Positions 2,456 to 63,812 of a stretch of 64,000 bases of DNA are shown one piece after another; positions within the stretch are counted from its first letter, which is position 1, and each line of letters begins with the position of its first letter. The notes below the pieces were generated by a model. That model had not been told where the DNA came from. It saw nothing but the letters and a program-made list of their open reading frames with translations, and ran no database searches. Position numbers and translations under genes: made by a program. This stretch comes from Natronorubrum tibetense GA33 (GTDB taxonomy: Archaea; Halobacteriota; Halobacteria; Halobacteriales; Natrialbaceae), in assembly GCF_000383975.1 (NCBI RefSeq), contig NZ_KB913017.1, positions 3,820,265 to 3,884,264 of the forward strand. Direction: 5' to 3'.

Positions 2456-2551
2456 CCTTGTCAAGAAGGAGCGACGCTGTCGCCGGAGGCTGTCGGTGAA
2501 GACACAGTTCGGCTCTCGAGCGACGCTGTCGTTCGCCGACGGTCGTCACCA

Positions 2552-2568
2552 GCTCTGATTATCAGAGC
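2552..2568. repeat. Perfect 17-bp palindrome
   Basis: GCTCTGAT-T-ATCAGAGC has perfect 8-base arms with a one-base centre. It lies between the divergent DHH and dioxygenase-like genes. A 14-base direct repeat, GAGCGACGCTGTCG, occurs nearby at 2469-2482 and 2518-2531. It may be an operator or the edge of a transferred segment. Confidence 0.6.
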
Positions 2569-2699
2569 CTGTGTTACAACACTGAGTCCGAGACAGGGAA
2601 GTATCATGTTCTTTCGGTTTTAAACGTATAGGTTTTGCGGTATCTTAACGGGGTGATCCGTAGAGCTTCACAAAGGGGGTGTGTTGAGTGATTTGCATC

Positions 2700-3503
2700 A
2701 TGCAAGAACGTGTGCTGAGCCCGGAACAACGTGAGCGGTTCATTCACAGTGGCTTCGTCGTTCTCCGGAATGTCATCTCTCAAGCGGTACTCGACGAAGC
2801 ACTCGACGTGGTGATTGAAACGGTTCCAGAGGACATGACTGACTTCAAGGCGTTGGTCGCCGGTCCTGACGACCGCCATTACTGGAACGATCTTGCAGAC
2901 ATGGCTCCGTTCTACCAGCTAAACGAACAACTACATACCTACGCAGAGGAACTCGTCGGAGTAGACCGACTCCAACCGCCCAGTGAATTCACACAAGTTG
3001 CCGTTCGCTATCCTACTGGTCAGTTTCCCAGTACCTCGGAACACCCAGTAACCACCGTAGACGGAAATCCACACATCGATATATTCGGGGATTCTGGGGA
3101 GCTCAGACCGTTCACCATCGGCGCGACGACGTATCTCGATGACGTACACCCTCGTGGGGGCGGCCTGACCATCTGGCCCGGTACACACTGGCGAGTCGCA
3201 GAGTACCTCTCTGAGCACGGTGTAGATTCCTACTCAAACGAGAAAGTAGGGGACATGATAGGCTCACGTACCACCCCATTCGAGGTCACTGGATCCGCGG
3301 GAACAGTCGTGCTCTGGCATAACCTTCTCGTCCACACTGGAGGTTGCCATTTAGAACGAGAGCCACGTATCGCGGCGTTCACGCGATTTCGGCGCTCGAA
3401 CGAAACGAAAACCAGCCACGACGCCGCTAAAAATCCGTTCAAATACTGGGATGGAGTTAAACAGAAAAGTTCTGTACCAACCGATGGTTCCTCCTTTGCT
3501 TGA
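2700..3503 (+). CDS. Phytanoyl-CoA dioxygenase (PhyH) family protein
   Basis: A 267-residue protein resembling Fe(II)/2-oxoglutarate dioxygenases of the PhyH family. The iron motif HxD is visible as HIDIF near residue 123, and the distal His is within WHNLLVHTGG (about 207). A downstream Arg (about residue 222-225) could bind 2-oxoglutarate. The family hydroxylates very varied small molecules, including phytanoyl-CoA, ectoine and halogenation substrates, so the substrate is open. The ATG at 2700 was chosen over the codon at 2688 because the family begins just before the sequence VLSPEQ. A G-rich stretch (2682-2687) lies about 12 bases upstream. Codon use looks more A/T-rich than neighbours, and repeats flank the gene, so transfer is plausible. 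Confidence 0.75.
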   Translation: MQERVLSPEQRERFIHSGFVVLRNVISQAVLDEALDVVIETVPEDMTDFKALVAGPDDRHYWNDLADMAPFYQLNEQLHTYAEELVGVDRLQPPSEFTQVAVRYPTGQFPSTSEHPVTTVDGNPHIDIFGDSGELRPFTIGATTYLDDVHPRGGGLTIWPGTHWRVAEYLSEHGVDSYSNEKVGDMIGSRTTPFEVTGSAGTVVLWHNLLVHTGGCHLEREPRIAAFTRFRRSNETKTSHDAAKNPFKYWDGVKQKSSVPTDGSSFA

Positions 3504-7767: not shown

Positions 7768-9120
7768 ATGCAGATGGATTCCACTCGCAGACGATTTCTG
7801 GTGGGCGGTGCAACCGTTAGCGCGGTCGCACTCGCCGGCTGTACCGGGGGCAGCGACGACGATACTGAGGACGAAGACGAAAACGGCGGGGAAGAGCCCG
7901 AAAACTACGAAGTCTGGGCGCTCGATCAGGGACAGGACAACATTCACGTCTACGAACCCGCCGACGAAGACGAGTTCGACGAGGCCGAATCGATCGACCT
8001 CAACGAACTCGAGGGCGTTCCGGACGAGGGCGTCGTTCCGCACATGATCGACTTCAGTTCGGACTACGAGTACGCAGCCATCGCCTGTACGGCCGGCGCG
8101 CGAACGCTCGTCTTCCGAACCGAGGATAAGGAACTCGTCGGTAACATCGAGACCGGCCCGCGGACCCACATGGCCTCGTTCTCGCCGGGTGACGAGTACA
8201 TCCACGTCGACGTTATCGGTGACCCCGATGAGGAGTACGGCTGGATCATCCGACTCGAGGCCGACTTCGAAGACTACGAGTTCGAGGAGGTCGATCGGCT
8301 CGACTTCTCCGAGAACGAGGCTATCGACGAGGCAGGCGTCTGGCCGGCCCGCCCGATCTGCCACCAGTTCGCGGCCGACGGTCGGTCGCTCCACACGCTG
8401 GGCCCGGCCCACGGCGACGGCGGAGTCGTCATCATCGACCACGACGACTTCGAGGTCGACCGAGCGTACACCCAGGAGGAGGCGCCGATCAACTGCGGCA
8501 CGATGCCTCACTACGCCGACGAGAAGTTCTATCTCACCGGCGGTCGGCCGACTGACCCCGACGGCGAGGAGGGGATCGGTGAATACTACGTCTACGACAC
8601 TGCAGAAGACGAGTTCATCGTCGAAGGCGAGGACAGCGGCGGCATCGACGCCCACGGCTTCTGGTTCACGCCCGACGGCGAGGAGCTCTGGCTGCTCAAC
8701 CGCGAGACCAACGACGGCCTGATACTCGATCCGGACGACGACTCCGTAATCGAAGAGATCAACGAATACGGGCCCGCCACTGGCGACGAACCGGAGACCA
8801 GCGACGCACCCGACATCATGTGGTCGTCGCCGGACGGCGAGTACATGTTCGTGACCCTTCGGGGCCCCGCTCCGCTCTCCGGCGGTGCCCACGCCGCGAC
8901 GGGCGTCAACCCCGGCTTCGCCGTGATGGACATCGAGACCCGCGAGCGTGTCGACGTCGTCGAACCCGATCCGATCGAAAACTACGACGACGAGGATATC
9001 GAAGCGGCGCGAGACGAAGAAGACGATGCACCACGGATTCCGGACTTCCACGGTATCGGGGTCCGTCCGGTCGACGAGTTCGACAGCGAGATTCCGAACT
9101 CTCCCGCCTACGACAACTGA
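7768..9120 (+). CDS. TAT-exported lipoprotein, beta-propeller-like
   Basis: A 450-residue surface protein. The N-terminus has a twin-arginine motif TRRRFL (about 6-11), a hydrophobic stretch, and a lipobox LAGC with the lipidated Cys at about 25, followed by an acidic linker. The rest shows repeated blocks (for example VVPHMIDFSS, HMASFSPGDEYIHV, HQFAADGRSLHTL, MWSSPDGEYMFV) typical of YVTN/lactonase-like beta propellers. Haloarchaea export many such lipoproteins through the TAT system. Ligand or enzyme activity is unknown. The ATG at 7768 gives the shortest sensible TAT leader; an ATG at 7774 is also possible. Confidence 0.8.
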   Translation: MQMDSTRRRFLVGGATVSAVALAGCTGGSDDDTEDEDENGGEEPENYEVWALDQGQDNIHVYEPADEDEFDEAESIDLNELEGVPDEGVVPHMIDFSSDYEYAAIACTAGARTLVFRTEDKELVGNIETGPRTHMASFSPGDEYIHVDVIGDPDEEYGWIIRLEADFEDYEFEEVDRLDFSENEAIDEAGVWPARPICHQFAADGRSLHTLGPAHGDGGVVIIDHDDFEVDRAYTQEEAPINCGTMPHYADEKFYLTGGRPTDPDGEEGIGEYYVYDTAEDEFIVEGEDSGGIDAHGFWFTPDGEELWLLNRETNDGLILDPDDDSVIEEINEYGPATGDEPETSDAPDIMWSSPDGEYMFVTLRGPAPLSGGAHAATGVNPGFAVMDIETRERVDVVEPDPIENYDDEDIEAARDEEDDAPRIPDFHGIGVRPVDEFDSEIPNSPAYDN

Positions 9121-9191
9121 GCGGAGTTCGACTGGACTGGTCTGCTGGTCGGCAGCGATTCACCGCGCTCGAATTCGACGACGGTTCGTTC

Positions 9192-9347
9192 TTAATTGAC
9201 CAGTATTTCCGGCGGGGGGAGCCTGATCGAATCGACGGCGTGTCCCGTCTCCACAAAGTGATCGATCGCGCGTTTCGAGACCTCCTCGGGCGTACACCCA
9301 TCCTCCGTGCTCGCGTGCCAGTCACATTCGAGACAGTATTTGTGCAT
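9192..9347 (-). CDS. Small C2H2-like zinc-finger protein (51 aa)
   Basis: A short minus-strand gene: it begins MHKYCLECDWHAS and ends PPPEILVN. It has a CxxC knuckle (residues 5 and 8), then His30 and His36 in DHFVETGHAVDS, giving C-x2-C-x21-H-x5-H. Haloarchaea encode families of small proteins with a CxxC knuckle and a VETGH segment, so this looks like a real gene despite its size. The frame has strong third-position GC bias. It converges with the lipoprotein gene ending at 9120. Function is unknown. Confidence 0.7.
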   Translation of the reverse strand: MHKYCLECDWHASTEDGCTPEEVSKRAIDHFVETGHAVDSIRLPPPEILVN

Positions 9348-9655
9348 CTGTCGGTCTTACATACCAGTCGACGATAGAGGGTTGAAAACGTCGTGCAGGA
9401 AAGCGACGGTCCATGCACTCGCCTGCGAAGGAAAGTCACAGGTGAAAACGAGTCAGAATCTGTGAGGAACACCCGAGTGACGGACGGCGAAAATAGCGGC
9501 AATCACGGATAGTTTGATTCTCGTCGAGTGGCGATGACTGGTATCCGATCGAGACCGTCCCGCGACGACGACCGCCCGAATCCGTTCGATCGAGTTTCGA
9601 CGGGGCTGGTGTCCGTATCCGGGGCCTTTAAGCGCGGAGGAGGCAATCTCTCGGT
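9348..9655. other. Intergenic stretch with ilvD promoter and ribosome-binding site
   Basis: About 308 bases between divergent genes. CCTTTAAGCG (9625-9634) is a likely TATA element, and GGAGGAGG (9636-9643) a strong Shine-Dalgarno sequence 12 bases before the ilvD ATG. Nothing else is recognisable. Confidence 0.5.
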
Positions 9656-55280: not shown

Positions 55281-55965
55281 GAACCTCTTCCAAGAATATA
55301 CATAATAGCACGACTTTAACTTTTGGAATTTTTTCACCAGCAGCGGCCAGAACTGATAGTGTATTAGTGTGTCGGCCGTTTTCGATCGGTCTCGCAACCG
55401 TTGGTTGAAAATATCGCAGTTTTTTGACCATCCAAGAACGTTCGTGTGATTTGTCGTCGGCATCGGTTCGAAGCAGTCGTCTACAGGCCGTCCAACGGTG
55501 ATTACCTGCGATCACCGAGTTGGTTACCGGAACGTGACGATCGTCGTGTTCCGACGAGGGATGTAGCCGCAATCCCACACTTTGAGCGGTCACGACGCCA
55601 TTACCGCGCCCGCTCCCCGACGGTATCGGTGTTCGGTCCTCGAGTTCGTAATCGTCGACCGGCCGGACGACGAGCCGAAACCGACGGACGGTTCGAACGA
55701 TGAACAACTGATTACCGGTCACCGACGATGCAGTGTGCGGGCATCGGCGTCTCGGCTGTGTACCGATCCACAGCTACCGAACGTCTCAGTCGGCATTTCG
55801 TTACCGAGATAGCCGGAAATCCAATTCGAGATTGGATTCGCCCGTTCGGTAGAAATACGCGCAACGACCCAGAACGATCAACTCAGTTTATTGGGGAATC
55901 CACCCACTATCTGGTGCAGTCCGACAGTCGCATCGGAGACGATTTTCGGAGGCAGCGAGGAGACC
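55281..55965. other. Long intergenic stretch with dyad elements
   Basis: About 685 bases between two divergent genes, with no convincing ORF. Promoter-like A/T runs lie near 55300 (minus strand). CGGTGAT (55496-55502) pairs with ATCACCG (55511-55517), and a 26-base near-palindrome spans 55528-55553. A T-rich element before 55966 (about 55938-55950) and GGAGG (55950-55954) serve the plus-strand gene. Confidence 0.5.
55528..55553. repeat. 26-bp near-perfect palindrome
   Basis: The arms CGGAAC and GTTCCG flank a perfect inner palindrome, GACGATCGTC; only the two GT dinucleotides between them break the symmetry (22 of 26 bases match). This is a candidate operator for one of the flanking genes. 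Confidence 0.5.
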
Positions 55966-57441
55966 ATGAGAGACAACAACCAGCGAACGCACGAGGACCG
56001 GGCGTACGACATCGCTCTGTCGCGTCGCACGCTTCTGGCGGGGACGGGCGCAGTCCTCGCCGCCGGTACAGTGGTACCGGCGACAGCGTTCGCACAGGAG
56101 GATGGAGCCGCCGAAGCCGGCATCGACGAGGGAATCGAACGCCTCGAGGATGAGGGCATCGAAGTCACGGACGAACAGCGAGAGGCGGCGGTCGATGCGG
56201 CGACCGACGCTGCTGATGAGCATCCGGACGCGGACGACGATCAGATCTTCGGAGCCGCGAGCGGGGCGGTGTTCGGAGCGCTCGAAGTGGAACCGGAGGA
56301 AGAGCCGGAGACGGATCCGGAGGAGTTCGAGGTTCCGGACGAGGACGACGACGAACTCGAGTTGCTGGCGCTCCAGCAGTCACAGACCCAGCAGGTCGAC
56401 GCTTCGCAGGTCCAGGCGCTTGTGGGCGGCGGAATGAACGGCGCGCTCGCACAGTACCAGCGCGTCACCGCGACACAGATCCAGCACGCGGCGAGGGGAG
56501 CGTGCCGCGGCGCGGCGTATCAGTCGCAGGTCGTGACCGTCGAGCAACTCCAGATCGCCGCACTCGGCGGTGCGGCAGGGTCGCTCACGCAGGCGCAGTC
56601 GGTGTCGGTGACGCAGATTCAGGCGGCGGCCTGGGGCGGATCCTCGGGCGCACTCAGCGGAGTAACCCAGCACCAAAGCGTCTCGATCACCCAGTTACAA
56701 GCCGCTGCACAGGGTGCCGCGGAAGGCGCTGCTCGCGGAGCGGCCCAGCGACAGGATGTCGGTGCCGACCAGCTGATGGCGGCCGCCTACGGCTGTGCCC
56801 AAGGGGCGGCAATACAGACGCAGGTCACGAGCGTGACCCAGATCCAGGCGCTCGCCATCGGCGCGGCGCGCGGTATCGTCGTCACGTTCGTGCAGGTGAC
56901 GATCATCCAGATTCTACTCGTGGCGAGGCAGGCGGTCGCCGCGATCAGCGTCGTAATCGTCCAGATCTCGCTCGTCAGTATCACGCAGATCCAGCAGTAC
57001 GCGGCGCAGTCCGCAGCCAACACGATGGAACGAGTCGAATCGGAGGGACTCGAGAGCGAAGACGAAATCGAGGAGGCTGCATCCGACGAAGCGACGACGA
57101 CCGCCGAAGAGGAAGGCTACGAAGAGAACGGCGAGAACGGTGATGAAGACGGCGACGGAGAAGACGGTGACGACGAGAACGGTGATGATGACGGCGACGG
57201 CGAAAACGGTGATGGCGAGAACGGCGATGAAGACGGTGAGAACGGCAATGGTGAAGCAGGTAACGGCGCGAACGGCGAGATAGAGAACGGTAACGAGGTT
57301 GGCAGCGGCGAGAACGGCAACGGTAACGGCGACTCCGGCAACGGTGTCGCAAACGGCAACGATGGAAGCAACGGCGACTCCGGAAACGACGCGGCCAACA
57401 ACGGTGCCAATGGCGGCGATACACCGACGATGAACTTCTAA
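55966..57441 (+). CDS. TAT-secreted glutamine-rich repeat protein
   Basis: A 491-residue secreted protein. A twin-arginine signal (SRRTLLAGTGAVLAAGTVVP, about 19-38) has a likely cut after AFA at 43. An acidic region (about 44-130) precedes about eight repeats of about 23 residues (nucleotides 56371 to about 57030). Their consensus is roughly Q-x-VSVTQIQAAAxGAAxGA. The last two are more hydrophobic (VTIIQILLVARQAV). The tail (about 375-485) is Asn/Gly/Asp/Glu low complexity. The regular Q and G spacing is like a beta-solenoid or amyloid-type repeat, but could also be helical. No named family is recognised. The ATG at 55966 follows GGAGGCAG; an upstream frame has no signal. Confidence 0.75.
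   Translation: MRDNNQRTHEDRAYDIALSRRTLLAGTGAVLAAGTVVPATAFAQEDGAAEAGIDEGIERLEDEGIEVTDEQREAAVDAATDAADEHPDADDDQIFGAASGAVFGALEVEPEEEPETDPEEFEVPDEDDDELELLALQQSQTQQVDASQVQALVGGGMNGALAQYQRVTATQIQHAARGACRGAAYQSQVVTVEQLQIAALGGAAGSLTQAQSVSVTQIQAAAWGGSSGALSGVTQHQSVSITQLQAAAQGAAEGAARGAAQRQDVGADQLMAAAYGCAQGAAIQTQVTSVTQIQALAIGAARGIVVTFVQVTIIQILLVARQAVAAISVVIVQISLVSITQIQQYAAQSAANTMERVESEGLESEDEIEEAASDEATTTAEEEGYEENGENGDEDGDGEDGDDENGDDDGDGENGDGENGDEDGENGNGEAGNGANGEIENGNEVGSGENGNGNGDSGNGVANGNDGSNGDSGNDAANNGANGGDTPTMNF
56371..57030 (+). repeat. Array of about eight 69-bp coding repeats
   Basis: Successive segments of about 69 bases each encode one 23-residue Q-x-V-x-V-T-Q-I-Q-A-A-A-x-G unit. DNA identity between copies is moderate, so the repeats diverged by drift and are held by protein-level selection. 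The low-complexity (GAGAACGG-rich) tail at about 57112-57420 is a second, shorter repeat tract. Confidence 0.65.
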
Positions 57442-57678: not shown

Positions 57679-58791
57679 GTGGTTTACGAGACGAACAACC
57701 AGACGGTCGACGACGCACTCGAGCGCGTGCTGGCCGGCGAGCGACTCGATCGAACCGACGGGCTCGCGCTGATGGCCCAGCCGGTCGACCCACTCGCTGA
57801 GGCCGGAGCCGCCGTGCGCGATCAGTTCGGTGACGGCACGGTCGACGCCTGCTCGATCGTCAACGCAAAGGCGGGCAACTGCGCCGAGGACTGCGGCTTC
57901 TGTGCGCAGTCCGTCCACTTCGACACCGGCATCGACACCTACGGCTTCCTCGGGCCCGAGAAGATCCTCGAGGCAGCCAAACGCGCCGAACGCGACGGTG
58001 CTCAGCGATTCGGCATCGTCGTCGCTGAAAAAGGCGTCTCGAAAGCAAACCGGCCCGAAGAGTGGGCGGAGGTCCTCGAGTCCATCCGACGCGTTCGCGA
58101 CGAGTGTGATCTCGAGGTCGACGCCTCGCTCGGTATTCTCACGGAGGAGGAAGCTGCGATCCTCGCCGACGAGGGGATCAACCACTACAATCACAACATC
58201 GAGACCTCGCCGCGGTACTTCCCGGAGATCGTCGACACCCACAGTTTCGAGGATCGGGTGAAGACTCTCGAGGTCGCCAAAGCGGCCGGGATGGACCTCT
58301 GTGCGGGCGTCATCCTCGGGATGGGCGAGACGCCGACCGACCGCGTCGACGCCGCCATCGCCCTGCAGGATATCGGTATCTCCTCGCTCCCGGTAAACGT
58401 CTTAAACCCCGTCGAGGGAACGCCGCTGTACGAACAGGGTGCAGACATCACCACCAAGGAGATAATCAAGACGGTCGCGGTGTACAAACTGCTCCACCCC
58501 GAATCGCGGGTGCGACTCACGGGCGGCCGCGAGGTCAACTTAGACCCAGATGAACAGCATCTACCCCTCGAGGCGGGTGCTGACGGCCTGCTCACCGGCG
58601 ACTATCTGACGACGGAAGGACAGTCACCCGGCGAGGATATCGAGATCATCGAGCGCGCCGGTCTCGAGCCGAATCAGGACGCCAACGAGTTCGACCCGGA
58701 GGAAGTCAAAGCGCGCCACGGCGCGTCAGCGGAGTCGTCGGCCGACGCGGATACGACGGCGAGTACGGGCGCAGAACCGAGCGACGACTAA
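57679..58791 (+). CDS. bioB: Biotin synthase
   Basis: A 370-residue radical-SAM enzyme that inserts sulfur into dethiobiotin. The cluster motif is NCAEDCGFCAQS (about 67-78; C-x3-C-x2-C). HYNHNIETSPRYFPEI is the second family region, and RLTGGREVN (about 276-284) the auxiliary-cluster site (Arg). The last 30 residues are an acidic, disordered tail, long for the family. The start is a GTG (57679). It is 33 bases upstream of the oxidoreductase gene and forms the biotin cluster with bioF and bioD. Confidence 0.95.
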   Translation: MVYETNNQTVDDALERVLAGERLDRTDGLALMAQPVDPLAEAGAAVRDQFGDGTVDACSIVNAKAGNCAEDCGFCAQSVHFDTGIDTYGFLGPEKILEAAKRAERDGAQRFGIVVAEKGVSKANRPEEWAEVLESIRRVRDECDLEVDASLGILTEEEAAILADEGINHYNHNIETSPRYFPEIVDTHSFEDRVKTLEVAKAAGMDLCAGVILGMGETPTDRVDAAIALQDIGISSLPVNVLNPVEGTPLYEQGADITTKEIIKTVAVYKLLHPESRVRLTGGREVNLDPDEQHLPLEAGADGLLTGDYLTTEGQSPGEDIEIIERAGLEPNQDANEFDPEEVKARHGASAESSADADTTASTGAEPSDD

Positions 58792-58823
58792 CGAATCAGT
58801 ACAACGAACTCACAACGACACAC

Positions 58824-59888
58824 ATGGACGACGTTACGTTTGCAGTACTCGGAACCGGAGGAATCGGCCGGCGAGCACTCGAAGTGAGCCAACAGAAAGA
58901 CCACCTGACGCCGGTCGCAGCCTGTGACCGCCACGGCACCGCGATCGATTTCGACGGCCTGGACGTCGACGAGCTGCTGGCCGCAACTGAGGGCAACATA
59001 GACAACGAAGTGGCGACCGACGGCGGAACGGGCGCCACACCGGCAGACGGCGAGGGTGGCGTCAAACAACACGGCGAAAATAGGGGCGTCGTCGCCTCGA
59101 GTCAGGCCCGTCCAAGCGAGGATTCGATTCAGGACGTCATCGATCACGGCGACGAAATCAACGCCGTCCTGCTGGCGCTACCGAACTACGAACATGACTT
59201 CATCCCACGGGTCGCCGATCGATTCCTCGAGGGCGGCTACGGCGGCGTACTGATCGACGTGCTCAAACGTTCGCGCGTGATCGACATGCTCGACGAGCGC
59301 GGCGACGAGTTCGAAGACGCGGGTATCACGTTCATCTGTGGCGCCGGCGCGACACCGGGTCTCCTGACGGGCGCTGCGGCGCTCGCCGCCCAATCGTTCG
59401 TCGAGGTCACCGACGTCGAGATCTGGTGGGGCGTCGGTCTCAAGTCCGGCTACCAGGACAACCGCGGCACCGTCCGCGAGGATATCGCACACCTCCCCGA
59501 GTACGATATCGAGACCGCTCGCGACCTTTCGGACGCGGAGATTGAGGCCATTATCGACGACCACGACGGCGTCATCGAGTTCGAGGACATGGAACACGCT
59601 GACGACGTGCTCCTCGAGCGCGCGGGCGTCTGCGACGCCGAGGACGTGACCGTCGGCGGTGTCCTCGACGTCCGCAGCGACGAGAAACCGACGACGACCA
59701 CCGTCAGCGTGACGGGAACGACATTCGACGGCGAGACGGCGACGAACACCTTCCAGCTCGGCGACGAGACGAGCATGGAGGCCAACGTCAACGGGCCGGC
59801 GCTCGGTTACCTGAAGACCGGCGTCCGGCGTAATCGTGCGGGCGAGTACGGTGTCCTCGGGCCCGCCGAACTGATGCCCGGATTCTGA
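58824..59888 (+). CDS. Saccharopine-dehydrogenase-like oxidoreductase in the biotin cluster
   Basis: A 354-residue protein. An N-terminal Rossmann fold, VLGTGGIGRRALEV (about 8-21), binds NAD(P). A low-complexity insert (about 55-100) follows, then a catalytic half with GAGATPGLLTGAAALAAQSF (about 172-191) and WWGVGLKSGYQDNRGT. It resembles saccharopine dehydrogenase and related reductases. Its position between bioB and bioF, in the same direction and with a 33-base gap, suggests a biotin-related step, perhaps in supplying the pimeloyl precursor, but no evidence shows which. A stand-alone role cannot be ruled out. Confidence 0.75.
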   Translation: MDDVTFAVLGTGGIGRRALEVSQQKDHLTPVAACDRHGTAIDFDGLDVDELLAATEGNIDNEVATDGGTGATPADGEGGVKQHGENRGVVASSQARPSEDSIQDVIDHGDEINAVLLALPNYEHDFIPRVADRFLEGGYGGVLIDVLKRSRVIDMLDERGDEFEDAGITFICGAGATPGLLTGAAALAAQSFVEVTDVEIWWGVGLKSGYQDNRGTVREDIAHLPEYDIETARDLSDAEIEAIIDDHDGVIEFEDMEHADDVLLERAGVCDAEDVTVGGVLDVRSDEKPTTTTVSVTGTTFDGETATNTFQLGDETSMEANVNGPALGYLKTGVRRNRAGEYGVLGPAELMPGF

Positions 59889-60038: not shown

Positions 60039-61271
60039 ATGGCACTGACACCGTACACCCGAATGGAAGACCGCGGGTTCGACCTCGAGGATCGACTCGA
60101 CGTCCTCGAGGAATCCGATCTGAAACGAACGCTCTCCCCCGTCGACCGGGTCGCCGAGCGTGGCTACTTCGCACCGCCCTGTGGCGGCGAGCTACCGGTT
60201 CTCGACTCGGCCGAAGCGCTGGTGTTCGCCTCGAATAACTATCTGGGGCTGACCGACGACCAGCGCATTCAGGACGCGGCCCGGCAGGCCGCCGCAACCG
60301 TCGGCACGGGTGCCGGTGCAAGTCGACTCGTCACCGGCGACACGATGGTCCATCAGGACCTAGAACGCGTGCTCGCCGAGACGAAAGGGACCGACCGCGC
60401 ACTCGCCTTCTCGTCGGGGTACGCCGCGAACGTCGGAACGATTACGGCCCTCGAGCCGGACGTGATCTTCTCCGACGAGTACAACCACGCGAGCATCATC
60501 GACGGCTGTCGGCTCACGGACGCCGACTCGATCGTCTACAGCCACTGCGATCCGACGAGCCTACGGACGAAGTTAGAGGAGCGAGCCAGAGCCGCCGGCA
60601 ACGCGGACGAGTCGTGGCTGATCGTCACCGATTCCGTGTTCAGCATGGACGGGACCGTCGCACCGATCGCGGAACTCTGTGACCTCGCCGAGGAGTTCGG
60701 CGCGTGGGTGATGGTCGACGAAGCCCACGCGACGGGGCTCTACGCGAACGGCGGCGGCGTCGTCCAGTCGGAGGGGCTCGAGGATCGCGTCCACGTCCAG
60801 ATGGGAACGCTCTCGAAGGCGCTGGCGAGCCAGGGCGGCTACGTCGCGGGGAGCGACGAACTGATCGAGTGTCTCTGCAACGACGCTCGTTCGTTCGTCT
60901 TTTCGACCGGGCTCGCGCCGCCGGCCGCCGCGGCCGCGAGCGAGGCGCTCCACGTCGCCCGCCACAGCGACGTTCGGGAACGGCTCTGGGAGAACGTGGC
61001 CCACCTCCGGGATGGTCTCGAGTCCATGGGGTTCGAGGTCATCGGCGATTCGCAGATCCTCCCCGTCCTCGTCGGCGACCGACGGGACGCGCTCGCGCTG
61101 GCCGACGGACTCCGCTCGCGAGAGGTTGTCGCACCCGCAATCCGTCCGCCGACGGTGCCGGAGGGGACGAGTCGAATCCGCGTCGCTCCGATGGCGACCC
61201 ACGAACAGCGCGACATCGTCGCCTGCCTCGAGGCGTTCCGGGCGGCGGGCGAAGACGTCGGGATTCTCTGA
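60039..61271 (+). CDS. bioF: 8-Amino-7-oxononanoate synthase
   Basis: A 410-residue PLP enzyme. NNYLGLTDDQRIQDAARQ (about 65-82) is the N-terminal signature, MVDEAHATGLY (about 224-234) contains PLP contacts, and MGTLSKALASQGGYV (about 254-268) the PLP Lys. It condenses pimeloyl-CoA (or ACP) with alanine. The ATG at 60039 was preferred over one at 60006 because homologues have a short leader. The gene ends 9 bases before bioD, and there is a 150-base gap after the oxidoreductase gene. Confidence 0.93.
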   Translation: MALTPYTRMEDRGFDLEDRLDVLEESDLKRTLSPVDRVAERGYFAPPCGGELPVLDSAEALVFASNNYLGLTDDQRIQDAARQAAATVGTGAGASRLVTGDTMVHQDLERVLAETKGTDRALAFSSGYAANVGTITALEPDVIFSDEYNHASIIDGCRLTDADSIVYSHCDPTSLRTKLEERARAAGNADESWLIVTDSVFSMDGTVAPIAELCDLAEEFGAWVMVDEAHATGLYANGGGVVQSEGLEDRVHVQMGTLSKALASQGGYVAGSDELIECLCNDARSFVFSTGLAPPAAAAASEALHVARHSDVRERLWENVAHLRDGLESMGFEVIGDSQILPVLVGDRRDALALADGLRSREVVAPAIRPPTVPEGTSRIRVAPMATHEQRDIVACLEAFRAAGEDVGIL

Positions 61272-61280
61272 GGACCACCG

Positions 61281-61973
61281 ATGAGCGAGACCAGCACCAC
61301 GACCGCGATCGTCGGAACCGGCACCGGTATCGGGAAGACCGTCGTGACCGCCGGGCTCACCCGCTGGCTCCGCGAGCAGGGAGTCGACGCTCGAGCAATC
61401 AAACCCGCCCAGACCGGCTATCCGCCGGACGACGACGCGGGCTTCGTCGCGGAGGCGTGCGGAGAGGACGAGGCCGCGACCTGTCCGCGCTATCTCGAGC
61501 CCGCACTCGCACCGCGCGTGGCCGCGGCCGAAGCCGGCGAGACGCTCACGTACGACTCGATTCTGTCGGCGTGCGAAGATGCGATCGCGGACACGTCACA
61601 CCCGATCGTCGAGGGGATCGGCGGTCTTCGAGTACCGCTAGCTGAAGATCGCGAGGTGATCGACCTCGTCGCCGACCTCGAGGCGACCGCCGTCGTCGTC
61701 ACCCGCTCGGGGCTCGGCACGCTCAATCACACCGCGCTCTCGGTCGAGGCGCTCGAGCGCCGCGGCATCGACATCACCGGCATCGTCTGCAACGAGTACG
61801 CCGGTGAGACGGTCGCCGAACGGACCAACCCCGCCGAACTCGAGCGCATGACCGGCTACGACGTCGAGACGGTGGCGCCGCTCGACGGTGAGACGCCGCG
61901 AGCGCTGGCTACCGGCGTCGAAAGCGCGCTCTCGTCGGACTTTTTGGAACGGGTTCTGATCGCTGACGGCTGA
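61281..61973 (+). CDS. bioD: Dethiobiotin synthetase
   Basis: A 230-residue ATP-dependent ligase. VGTGTGIGKTVVTAGLTRWL (about 11-30) is the P loop, IKPAQTGYPPDDD (about 41-53) the substrate site, and VEGIGGLRVPL (about 114-124) a further family motif. It closes the ureido ring of dethiobiotin from diaminopelargonate and CO2. bioA (the aminotransferase) is not in the window. Coupled to bioF by a 9-base gap. The bioD stop is followed by a convergent gene end. Confidence 0.94.
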   Translation: MSETSTTTAIVGTGTGIGKTVVTAGLTRWLREQGVDARAIKPAQTGYPPDDDAGFVAEACGEDEAATCPRYLEPALAPRVAAAEAGETLTYDSILSACEDAIADTSHPIVEGIGGLRVPLAEDREVIDLVADLEATAVVVTRSGLGTLNHTALSVEALERRGIDITGIVCNEYAGETVAERTNPAELERMTGYDVETVAPLDGETPRALATGVESALSSDFLERVLIADG

Positions 61974-62300: not shown

Positions 62301-63812
62301 TCACATGAAGTCGCTCAGTCCGGACTGGTCGTCGTCCGGTTCGGGATCTGCCGCTGGCGAGCCGGTATCGGACTCGCCGTCTTCGTTCCCCGAATCGGCG
62401 ACCGCGGTCAGCGTCTCCTGATCGTTTTCGTCGTCGGATGTGTCCGTGTCGCTCTCCCCGTTCGAGTCGATGTCGGCCGTCTCGTCGTCGCTCGAGTCAC
62501 CGGTGTCGAAGAACGCGCTGCCGGAGTGTTCGACGGTCTCCTCGGTGAGCAGTTCTTCGGCGTCCTCGACGACCGACTGGACCTTGTTGGTGTCTTTCCC
62601 GCTGCCGGTGATGAACGACACCTCCTTTTCGTCGAGATCGTAGGTTGCGGCCATCCGAACGGTGAGGTCGCGGTTCGTGCAGTGATGGGTCATCGCCGAA
62701 AGGAACGGGAGGATCTCCCGTCGTGCAGTGGCGACGCTCGTTCCCTCCTGTTCGGCGATACGTTCCGCGATGGCGTCACGGGTGTTCCGCGTCCCCTTGG
62801 TGCGGCCGAGTTTCGACCAGTAACTCGGCGGGCCGTAGCGGGTCCAGCCGCCTTTCGGTTCGCGTCGGGAGGCGGCGACACCGGCGGTCATGTTGTCCGT
62901 CGCGTAGCGCCAGTAGGAGTAGTTCTGGGTAGCGCGAACGCGGCCGAGCCAGCGGTCGGCGTTCGCGAGGTAGCCGTAGGCGTCGGCCAGCTCCGCCCCC
63001 TCGTAGTCCTTCGGCATGTTGTCCTCGATCCAGTTGAGCATCTCGTCGGGATTCTCGTCGACGTCGTAGGACGCCCGCAGCGCCTCCTCGGCGGTCGCCT
63101 CCTTGATGACCGTATCGAGGAAGTCGAAGATGCCTTCGGTCCGGTCGCGCTGGCTCGTGACGACGTCGTCGACGGTTAGCCGATCGGCTTCTTCGGCGAC
63201 AGCCTGCAGGTCGTTGACCGCCGATCGCAGGTCGCCGCTCGTCGACTCGGAGATCTTTTCTAACGCTTCCTCCTCGAACTCGACGCCCTCACGTCGGCAG
63301 ATGTCCCGCAAGACGGGGACGATCGAGCGTTTCGAGACGTCCCGGAACTCGATCGTCTCGCAGCTATTGCGCAGCGACTTACTCATGTCGTAGAACTCGT
63401 TGGCCACGAGGATCACCGGCTGGTTGGCCTCCTTGACGACGCGAGTGACCTCTCGAGAGCCGCCGTAGTCGGCGTTGCCGTGGAAGTTGTCCGCCTCGTC
63501 CATGATCACGAGTCGCCGGCCGGCGCCGCCCGCCGTGAGGGTCCCGCTCTTCGAGGCCTCGCCGGCGACCCGCTCGATAACGTCGGCTCCGCGGCTGTCG
63601 CTGGCGTTGAGTTCCATCACGGGCCAGCCCATGTCGTTGGCCAGCGCGTGGGCCGCCGAGGTCTTCCCGATGCCCGGACTCCCGTGGACGATCACGGCTT
63701 TTCGGTGATCGTCCCAGGTTTTCGCCCACTCCTCGAGGCTGTCGCGGGCCTTGTTGTTTCCGCGTACCTCCGACAGCGTGGTCGGACGGTACTTCTCGGT
63801 CCAGTCGCTCAT
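62301..63812 (-). CDS. rfcL: Replication factor C large subunit
   Basis: A 503-residue AAA+ clamp loader subunit. Walker A GSPGIGKTS (about 44-52), Walker B VIMDEAD (about 106-112), and the TSASNSAD-type sensor region NSCETIEFRD (about 148) are seen. With RfcS it loads PCNA at primer ends. The tail (about 400-503) is acidic and ends QSGLSDFM, a PIP-like motif for PCNA. No intein is present. The ATG at 63812 begins MSDWTEKYRP, the standard RfcL start. Confidence 0.95.
   Translation of the reverse strand: MSDWTEKYRPTTLSEVRGNNKARDSLEEWAKTWDDHRKAVIVHGSPGIGKTSAAHALANDMGWPVMELNASDSRGADVIERVAGEASKSGTLTAGGAGRRLVIMDEADNFHGNADYGGSREVTRVVKEANQPVILVANEFYDMSKSLRNSCETIEFRDVSKRSIVPVLRDICRREGVEFEEEALEKISESTSGDLRSAVNDLQAVAEEADRLTVDDVVTSQRDRTEGIFDFLDTVIKEATAEEALRASYDVDENPDEMLNWIEDNMPKDYEGAELADAYGYLANADRWLGRVRATQNYSYWRYATDNMTAGVAASRREPKGGWTRYGPPSYWSKLGRTKGTRNTRDAIAERIAEQEGTSVATARREILPFLSAMTHHCTNRDLTVRMAATYDLDEKEVSFITGSGKDTNKVQSVVEDAEELLTEETVEHSGSAFFDTGDSSDDETADIDSNGESDTDTSDDENDQETLTAVADSGNEDGESDTGSPAADPEPDDDQSGLSDFM

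Follow-up and report, generated by a model that had tools for sequence, protein, structure and literature searches.

A homologue of the suicide enzyme BioU within the biotin operon of Natronorubrum tibetense and other haloarchaea

The biotin operon of Natronorubrum tibetense GA33

The window, i.e. the whole stretch of 64,000 nucleotides analysed here, belongs to a genome of 4.93 Mb assembled in five contigs. It contains a biotin operon of four genes on a single strand (+), bioB, a bioU homologue, bioF and bioD (Table 1). An earlier note on this DNA had described a reductase-like gene between bioB and bioF on one strand; this is a real open reading frame (ORF), and its coordinates have been confirmed exactly. 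The gap that separates it from bioB is short, as had been claimed, although it measures 32 bases (58792-58823, from the bioB stop codon to the ATG) and not 33. The bioD gene had been missed, and with it the operon reads bioB-gene-bioF-bioD. For bioF, the ORF of which is open from 59895, translation probably begins with the ATG at 60039, judging from relatives. Among the named relatives of the protein encoded by the embedded gene (the "window protein"), that of Natronorubrum texcoconense is the nearest, with 95% identity. Directly upstream of the operon, positions 55891-57441 (+) encode a glutamine-rich repetitive protein with an apparent twin-arginine signal and a tail rich in Gly, Asn, Asp and Glu.

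Table 1. Genes of the biotin operon and features of the bioU homologue, in positions of the window
Feature	Position	Strand	Evidence
bioB, biotin synthase	57679..58791	+	GTG start; TIGR00433, 338.5 bits (cut-off 225)
bioU homologue, 354 residues, putative BioA-replacing NAD(P)H dehydrogenase	58824..59888	+	ATG start; NF047886, Slr0355 in the PDB, predicted structure
Haloarchaeal linker, residues 59-84	58998..59075	+	pLDDT <50; alignments
Lys148 codon, counterpart of the sacrificial Lys124	59265..59267	+	aligned with the Ala of 6itd (K124A); conserved
His258 codon, counterpart of His233 (mutated in 6k38, H233A)	59595..59597	+	His in 88/88 haloarchaeal rows
bioF, 8-amino-7-oxononanoate synthase	60039..61271	+	best NCBIfam model TIGR00858, 405.1 bits, slightly below the cut-off of 426.45
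bioD, dethiobiotin synthase	61281..61973	+	TIGR00347, 113.1 bits (cut-off 83.3)

Relationship to BioU in sequence and predicted fold

Slr0355 of Synechocystis, known as BioU, has a haloarchaeal homologue in the gene at 58824-59888. The window protein matches the NCBIfam family NF047886, (S)-8-amino-7-oxononanoate synthase BioU, with an E-value of 4.8e-103 and 344.6 bits, and no other NCBIfam family matches it at E ≤0.001. The naming cut-off of this family, 600 bits, is a curated threshold and not a biochemical feature; it is reached neither by the window protein, which for this reason is not filed under the equivalog as NCBI applies it, nor in any of the 292 genomes of the class. A sequence search of the PDB returns four distinct Slr0355 sequences (6ir4, 6itd, 6k36, 6k37, and 6k38) with E-values of 1e-84 to 1e-86, from entries entitled BioU apo, DAPA-conjugated, K124A, and H233A conjugated with DAPA. 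The next matches are short stretches of p53 with E-values of at least 0.14 (56 others listed, 94 matches in total). Identity with Slr0355 amounts to 46% over 314 aligned positions of the sequence alignment, and to 41% in the structural alignment. The N-terminal Rossmann part, which holds a variable linker, matches Slr0355 weakly (24 bits). The label "saccharopine-dehydrogenase-like", used in the earlier note, does not hold: the search of the window protein against Pfam gives no family at or above cut-off, and the saccharopine dehydrogenase NADP-binding domain PF03435 has seven places in the genome, none of them at this gene.

The predicted structure points in the same direction. The AF2 model, built with 36 sequences, has a pLDDT of 79 and a pTM of 0.71. 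Foldseek retrieves BioU with E-values down to 1.2e-31, vs 4.6e-7 for the next protein. By VIA, all five BioU entries match the model over 302-303 residues, with Z-scores of 23.7-24.1 and an rmsd of 4.7-4.9; homoserine dehydrogenase 3ing follows with a Z-score of 13.5. The model covers the BioU enzyme structures across residues 1-349, in a loose superposition (TM-score 0.62-0.68, rmsd 4.7-6.3). The linker (residues 59-84) is predicted as disordered; it is mostly missing from Slr0355, and its length varies among the haloarchaeal proteins.

The active-site residues were followed in an alignment of Slr0355 with 88 haloarchaeal rows, one from the window and 87 from loci L012-L098, anchored for numbering on Lys124; species duplicates are possible in it, and L096 and L094 are partial. 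At the position of Lys124, occupied by Lys148 in the window protein, a lysine is found in 87 of the 88 rows. In the sole exception, L094, the gene is frameshifted and the lysine stands in its first frame; so read, the count becomes 88/88. The position of His233, here His258, carries a histidine in every row.

Gene order and co-occurrence in haloarchaea

A class-wide survey of 292 haloarchaeal genomes was performed for BioU, BioB, BioD, BioA, and BioW. At E ≤0.001, the BioU model finds some match in 278 genomes, which fall into two groups. The strong group comprises 108 genomes with best E-values of 1.4e-38 or lower; the remainder, with values of at least 3.7e-8, consists of short N-terminal matches. 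BioU was counted as present when the best E-value was below 1e-30, i.e. in those 108 genomes, which hold 109 strong places (G230 has two).

The earlier note had proposed to check whether the order bioB-reductase-bioF is conserved across haloarchaea. It is: 107 of the 109 strong places have a same-strand bioB upstream of the matched stretch, at a distance of at most 1.2 kb, and the two exceptions (G282 and G129) still keep bioU, bioF, and bioD together. In the 85 loci with both genes, the gap between bioB and bioU has a median of 34 bases and a maximum of 194, apart from locus L013 (G021), where it reaches 814 bases with BioW in between. Among the 57 named loci, 50 display the full bioB-bioU-bioF-bioD order, four have bioB-bioU only (L065, L067, L080, L070), two have bioU-bioF-bioD (L077, L085), and one has bioU alone (L096, a partial match). 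Locus L070 is cut short; the full-length L065, L067, and L080 have no bioF or bioD within about 5 kb of bioB-bioU. Of the 30 short genome loci, which end some 1.5 kb away from the match, 20 carry all four genes, nine carry three, and one carries two. This conserved order bears out the description of an enzyme gene embedded in a biotin cluster, and a role in biotin synthesis is most likely.

Some variants have been observed. In three genomes (G150, G248, G265) and two loci (L090, L094), bioU is broken into at least two parts next to other bio genes, reflecting pseudogenes or sequencing errors. Some genomes have two bioB-bioU places (L078/L080, L068/L069, G230), and L080 lacks bioF and bioD nearby. 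It may be speculated that an extra bioU copy increases the dose of a single-use enzyme.

BioB (E ≤1e-50) is present in 130 of the 292 genomes, and none of the 292 has BioU without BioB. BioD, searched with the BioD protein of the window as query at E ≤1e-15 and with at most nine candidates scored per genome among the matches listed, is present in 109 genomes, namely all 108 with BioU and G227. Conversely, none of the 22 genomes having BioB without BioU yields a BioD match. Fisher tests give p-values of 2.5e-58 for BioU and BioB (292 genomes) and 2.3e-25 for BioU and BioD (within the 130), both overstated since the tests treat related species as independent. Genome G227 is the only one of the set with BioD and neither BioU nor BioB. 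Its bioF-bioD pair lies at two contig ends (L127, L128), and bioF is cut by the contig end in both copies, so that bioU and bioB may sit in an assembly gap. Eighteen of the 22 loci with BioB only (all but those of G112, G189, G244, and G267) were inspected over about 7 kb per side: bioF stands beside bioB in four of them, none harbors bioD or an intact bioU, and one (L104) retains a 62-residue bioU remnant. These patterns of presence and absence agree with an enzymatic step placed after BioF and before BioD. The genome of N. tibetense itself possesses bioB, bioF, and bioD and no BioA over cut-off, and the class-level pattern agrees for bioB, bioD, and BioA.

Public records name the gene poorly. 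Its plasmid-borne relatives (records H1-H7) are labelled "transcriptional regulator" in six cases out of seven and "hypothetical protein" in the seventh. In Haloferax larsenii and Natrinema thermotolerans (L121, L122), bioB, the BioU homologue, bioF, and bioD are consecutive in otherwise well-named operons. In a microarray study of Haloferax mediterranei, bioB, bioF, and bioD (HFX_5079, 5077, and 5076) are reported at reduced levels in an Lsm mutant starved of nitrogen (PMC10779274); HFX_5078 does not appear in the main text and, from the gene numbering, would be BioU. No mention of BioU in haloarchaea was found in the accessible portions of the open-access literature, a scope that excludes the original BioU paper (10.1038/s41589-019-0461-9). 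In phages, no match to the BioU homologue was obtained. Furthermore, 51 viral stretches fit one of two peptide patterns that might have signalled viral carriage, and none was confirmed.

Proposed function, pimelate supply, and known systems

The account published for Synechocystis BioU (PMC12915131) has the enzyme condense with 8-amino-7-oxononanoate at Lys124, using NAD(P)H. Carboxylation of this conjugate follows, after which NAD(P)+ serves to set the carbamate free; Lys124 is consumed in a single turnover. A second account (PMC7133116) agrees in outline. Either BioU or BioA is reported in all or nearly all cyanobacteria (PMC12903740). Being a relative of BioU, the haloarchaeal gene most likely fills a missing step of the pathway and not a new one, and the view that established pathways need no such enzyme is not supported, BioU being a replacement for BioA. 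We consider it very probable that a BioU-type dehydrogenase, with or without turnover, carries out the BioA step in haloarchaea, on the basis of homology, two conserved residues, the predicted fold, operon order, the lack of any BioA over cut-off, and co-occurrence with BioD.

By homology with the Synechocystis enzyme, the amino group of Lys148 would condense with the 8-amino-7-oxononanoate delivered by BioF. NAD(P)H would then reduce the adduct to an enzyme-diaminononanoate conjugate, to which CO2 would add, yielding a carbamate. Finally, NAD(P)+ would release the diaminononanoate-carbamate to BioD, and BioB would complete biotin. Since the nitrogen of Lys148 would stay in the product, each protein molecule would work once, and each biotin would cost the cell one whole BioU protein. 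This single-use chemistry, transposed from Synechocystis, is less sure than the assignment of the BioA step. An unlikely variant, comprised in the high probability given to that assignment, is that the haloarchaeal enzyme turns over with an external amine or a regenerated lysine, like an ordinary amine dehydrogenase. Homoserine and amine dehydrogenases are indeed the next fold neighbours (Z-scores of 12-13.5), and the haloarchaeal sequences differ by their linker and score below the BioU cut-off. However, Lys148 and His258 are kept as in BioU, and a turnover amine dehydrogenase would have no obvious need of them.

A quite improbable alternative is that an aminotransferase encoded elsewhere performs the BioA step, the embedded gene being accessory. 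The BioA model does match 14 places in the N. tibetense genome, with up to 310 bits, yet none reaches the cut-off, in agreement with the earlier note, in which bioA was not seen. The four best matches score higher with other aminotransferase models; in their E-value rankings of NCBIfam models, BioA comes 8th, 14th, 13th, and 24th. At the class level, BioA over cut-off is found in none of the 292 genomes (five candidates scored per genome among the matches listed), whereas BioU tracks bioD. A hidden BioA is thus improbable, the aminotransferase matches being all below cut-off, both among the 14 of the genome and among the candidates scored in the class.

A further proposal of the earlier note was that the gene may provide or alter either the pimeloyl precursor or a regulatory cofactor. 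Its observation that pimelate genes are not seen holds for BioW and BioC in the N. tibetense genome: BioW has no match, and the 25 BioC matches reach at best 69.3 bits, vs a cut-off of 184.95. This leaves room for such a role, which we nevertheless regard as highly improbable, the homology being to an enzyme of a later step and the gene occurring or missing along with bioD, which encodes the enzyme that follows BioA/BioU in the pathway. Moreover, neither BioU nor bioD occurs in the four inspected BioB-only loci where bioF still adjoins bioB, and in two archaeal loci a BioW gene is placed between bioB and bioU. The first, L013 in the haloarchaeon G021, carries a BioW-like gene at 2489-3259 (-) that scores 225.3 bits for a cut-off of 226, and 157.7 with TIGR01204 for a cut-off of 193.55. 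The second, L123, came from a search of 392 genomes of the phylum (E ≤1e-30), in which 27 match BioU, G565 and G569 being the two that fall outside the class. It belongs to G565, an archaeon of another class, and reads bioB-bioW-bioU-bioF-bioD (bioW at 8692-9465, -); each gene is over its curated cut-off except bioU (430.6 vs 600 bits). The contig of G569 starts inside bioU, followed by bioF-bioD. BioW being a 6-carboxyhexanoate-CoA ligase, L013 and L123 form apparently complete pimelate-to-biotin clusters. Since the BioU homologue coexists with BioW there, it is no substitute for pimelate activation in these loci. Lastly, a role in regulating transcription of the operon, as the label in six of the seven plasmid records would imply, is hardly credible: neither Pfam nor NCBIfam yields a DNA-binding family over cut-off, the model matches the BioU enzyme structures over residues 1-349, and the catalytic residues are kept.

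With the BioU-type dehydrogenase assigned to the BioA step, the remaining gap in the pathway is the source of pimelate, BioW (TIGR01204, E ≤0.001) being detected in only two of the 292 haloarchaeal genomes, G021 and G096, in neither case over cut-off. In G096, the BioW-like gene and an upstream bioB-like stretch lie on a contig (L134, G096:C65) apart from the bio operon; the GC content there is 0.58, vs 0.65 at the bio operon locus, and contaminant or foreign DNA is possible. A linked pimelate gene was sought in the flanks of 58 loci, a weak survey as the simple ORF caller finds bioD in 27 of the 58, vs 53 by tblastn. Besides the bio genes, one ORF cluster recurs in more than half of the loci (42/58), at the place and on the strand of the window ORF 62301-63812, which is taken as a replication factor C large subunit from the annotation of Natrinema thermotolerans at a like place. 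The flanks of L042-L098 also comprise upstream ORFs that we take for succinyl-CoA synthetase subunits, one in 19 loci and another in 11. A downstream acyl-CoA-synthetase-like ORF occurs in six loci. These genes may point to the way in which pimelate is activated, or simply be neighbours. It is an even call whether most biotin-making haloarchaea combine a suicide BioU with an undiscovered pimeloyl source, an ancestral archaeal bioB-bioW-bioU-bioF-bioD cluster having lost BioW and another acyl-CoA-forming enzyme having taken over.

The BioU homologue fills what is likely a gap in the biotin synthesis of haloarchaea; its assignment also corrects two misleading labels, "transcriptional regulator" in public records and "saccharopine-dehydrogenase-like" in the earlier note. 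The set of halophilic BioU homologues also offers material for testing why a cell would spend one protein per vitamin molecule.

Among known systems, saccharopine/lysine and homoserine dehydrogenases display a distant fold likeness (Z-scores of 13.5 for 3ing and 10.9 for the lysine dehydrogenase 3abi), and the window protein is far nearer to BioU than to PF03435 or homoserine dehydrogenases, in both sequence and predicted structure. BioA probably has its pathway step in common with the BioU homologue; it is a PLP aminotransferase, differing from BioU in chemistry and family. A pimeloyl-ACP methyl ester esterase acting at another step of the pathway is also named BioU in a review (PMC11089781), and the likeness is one of name only. 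The closest system is BioU/Slr0355 of Synechocystis sp. PCC 6803. In contrast to Slr0355, the haloarchaeal protein possesses a variable, predicted-disordered linker (residues 59-84) in its N-terminal domain and scores below the NCBIfam BioU cut-off, and its gene sits inside a bioB-bioU-bioF-bioD operon. The two share the counterparts of Lys124 and His233, the fold (as predicted for the haloarchaeal protein), and a context of bioF, bioD, and bioB in which no BioA is found.
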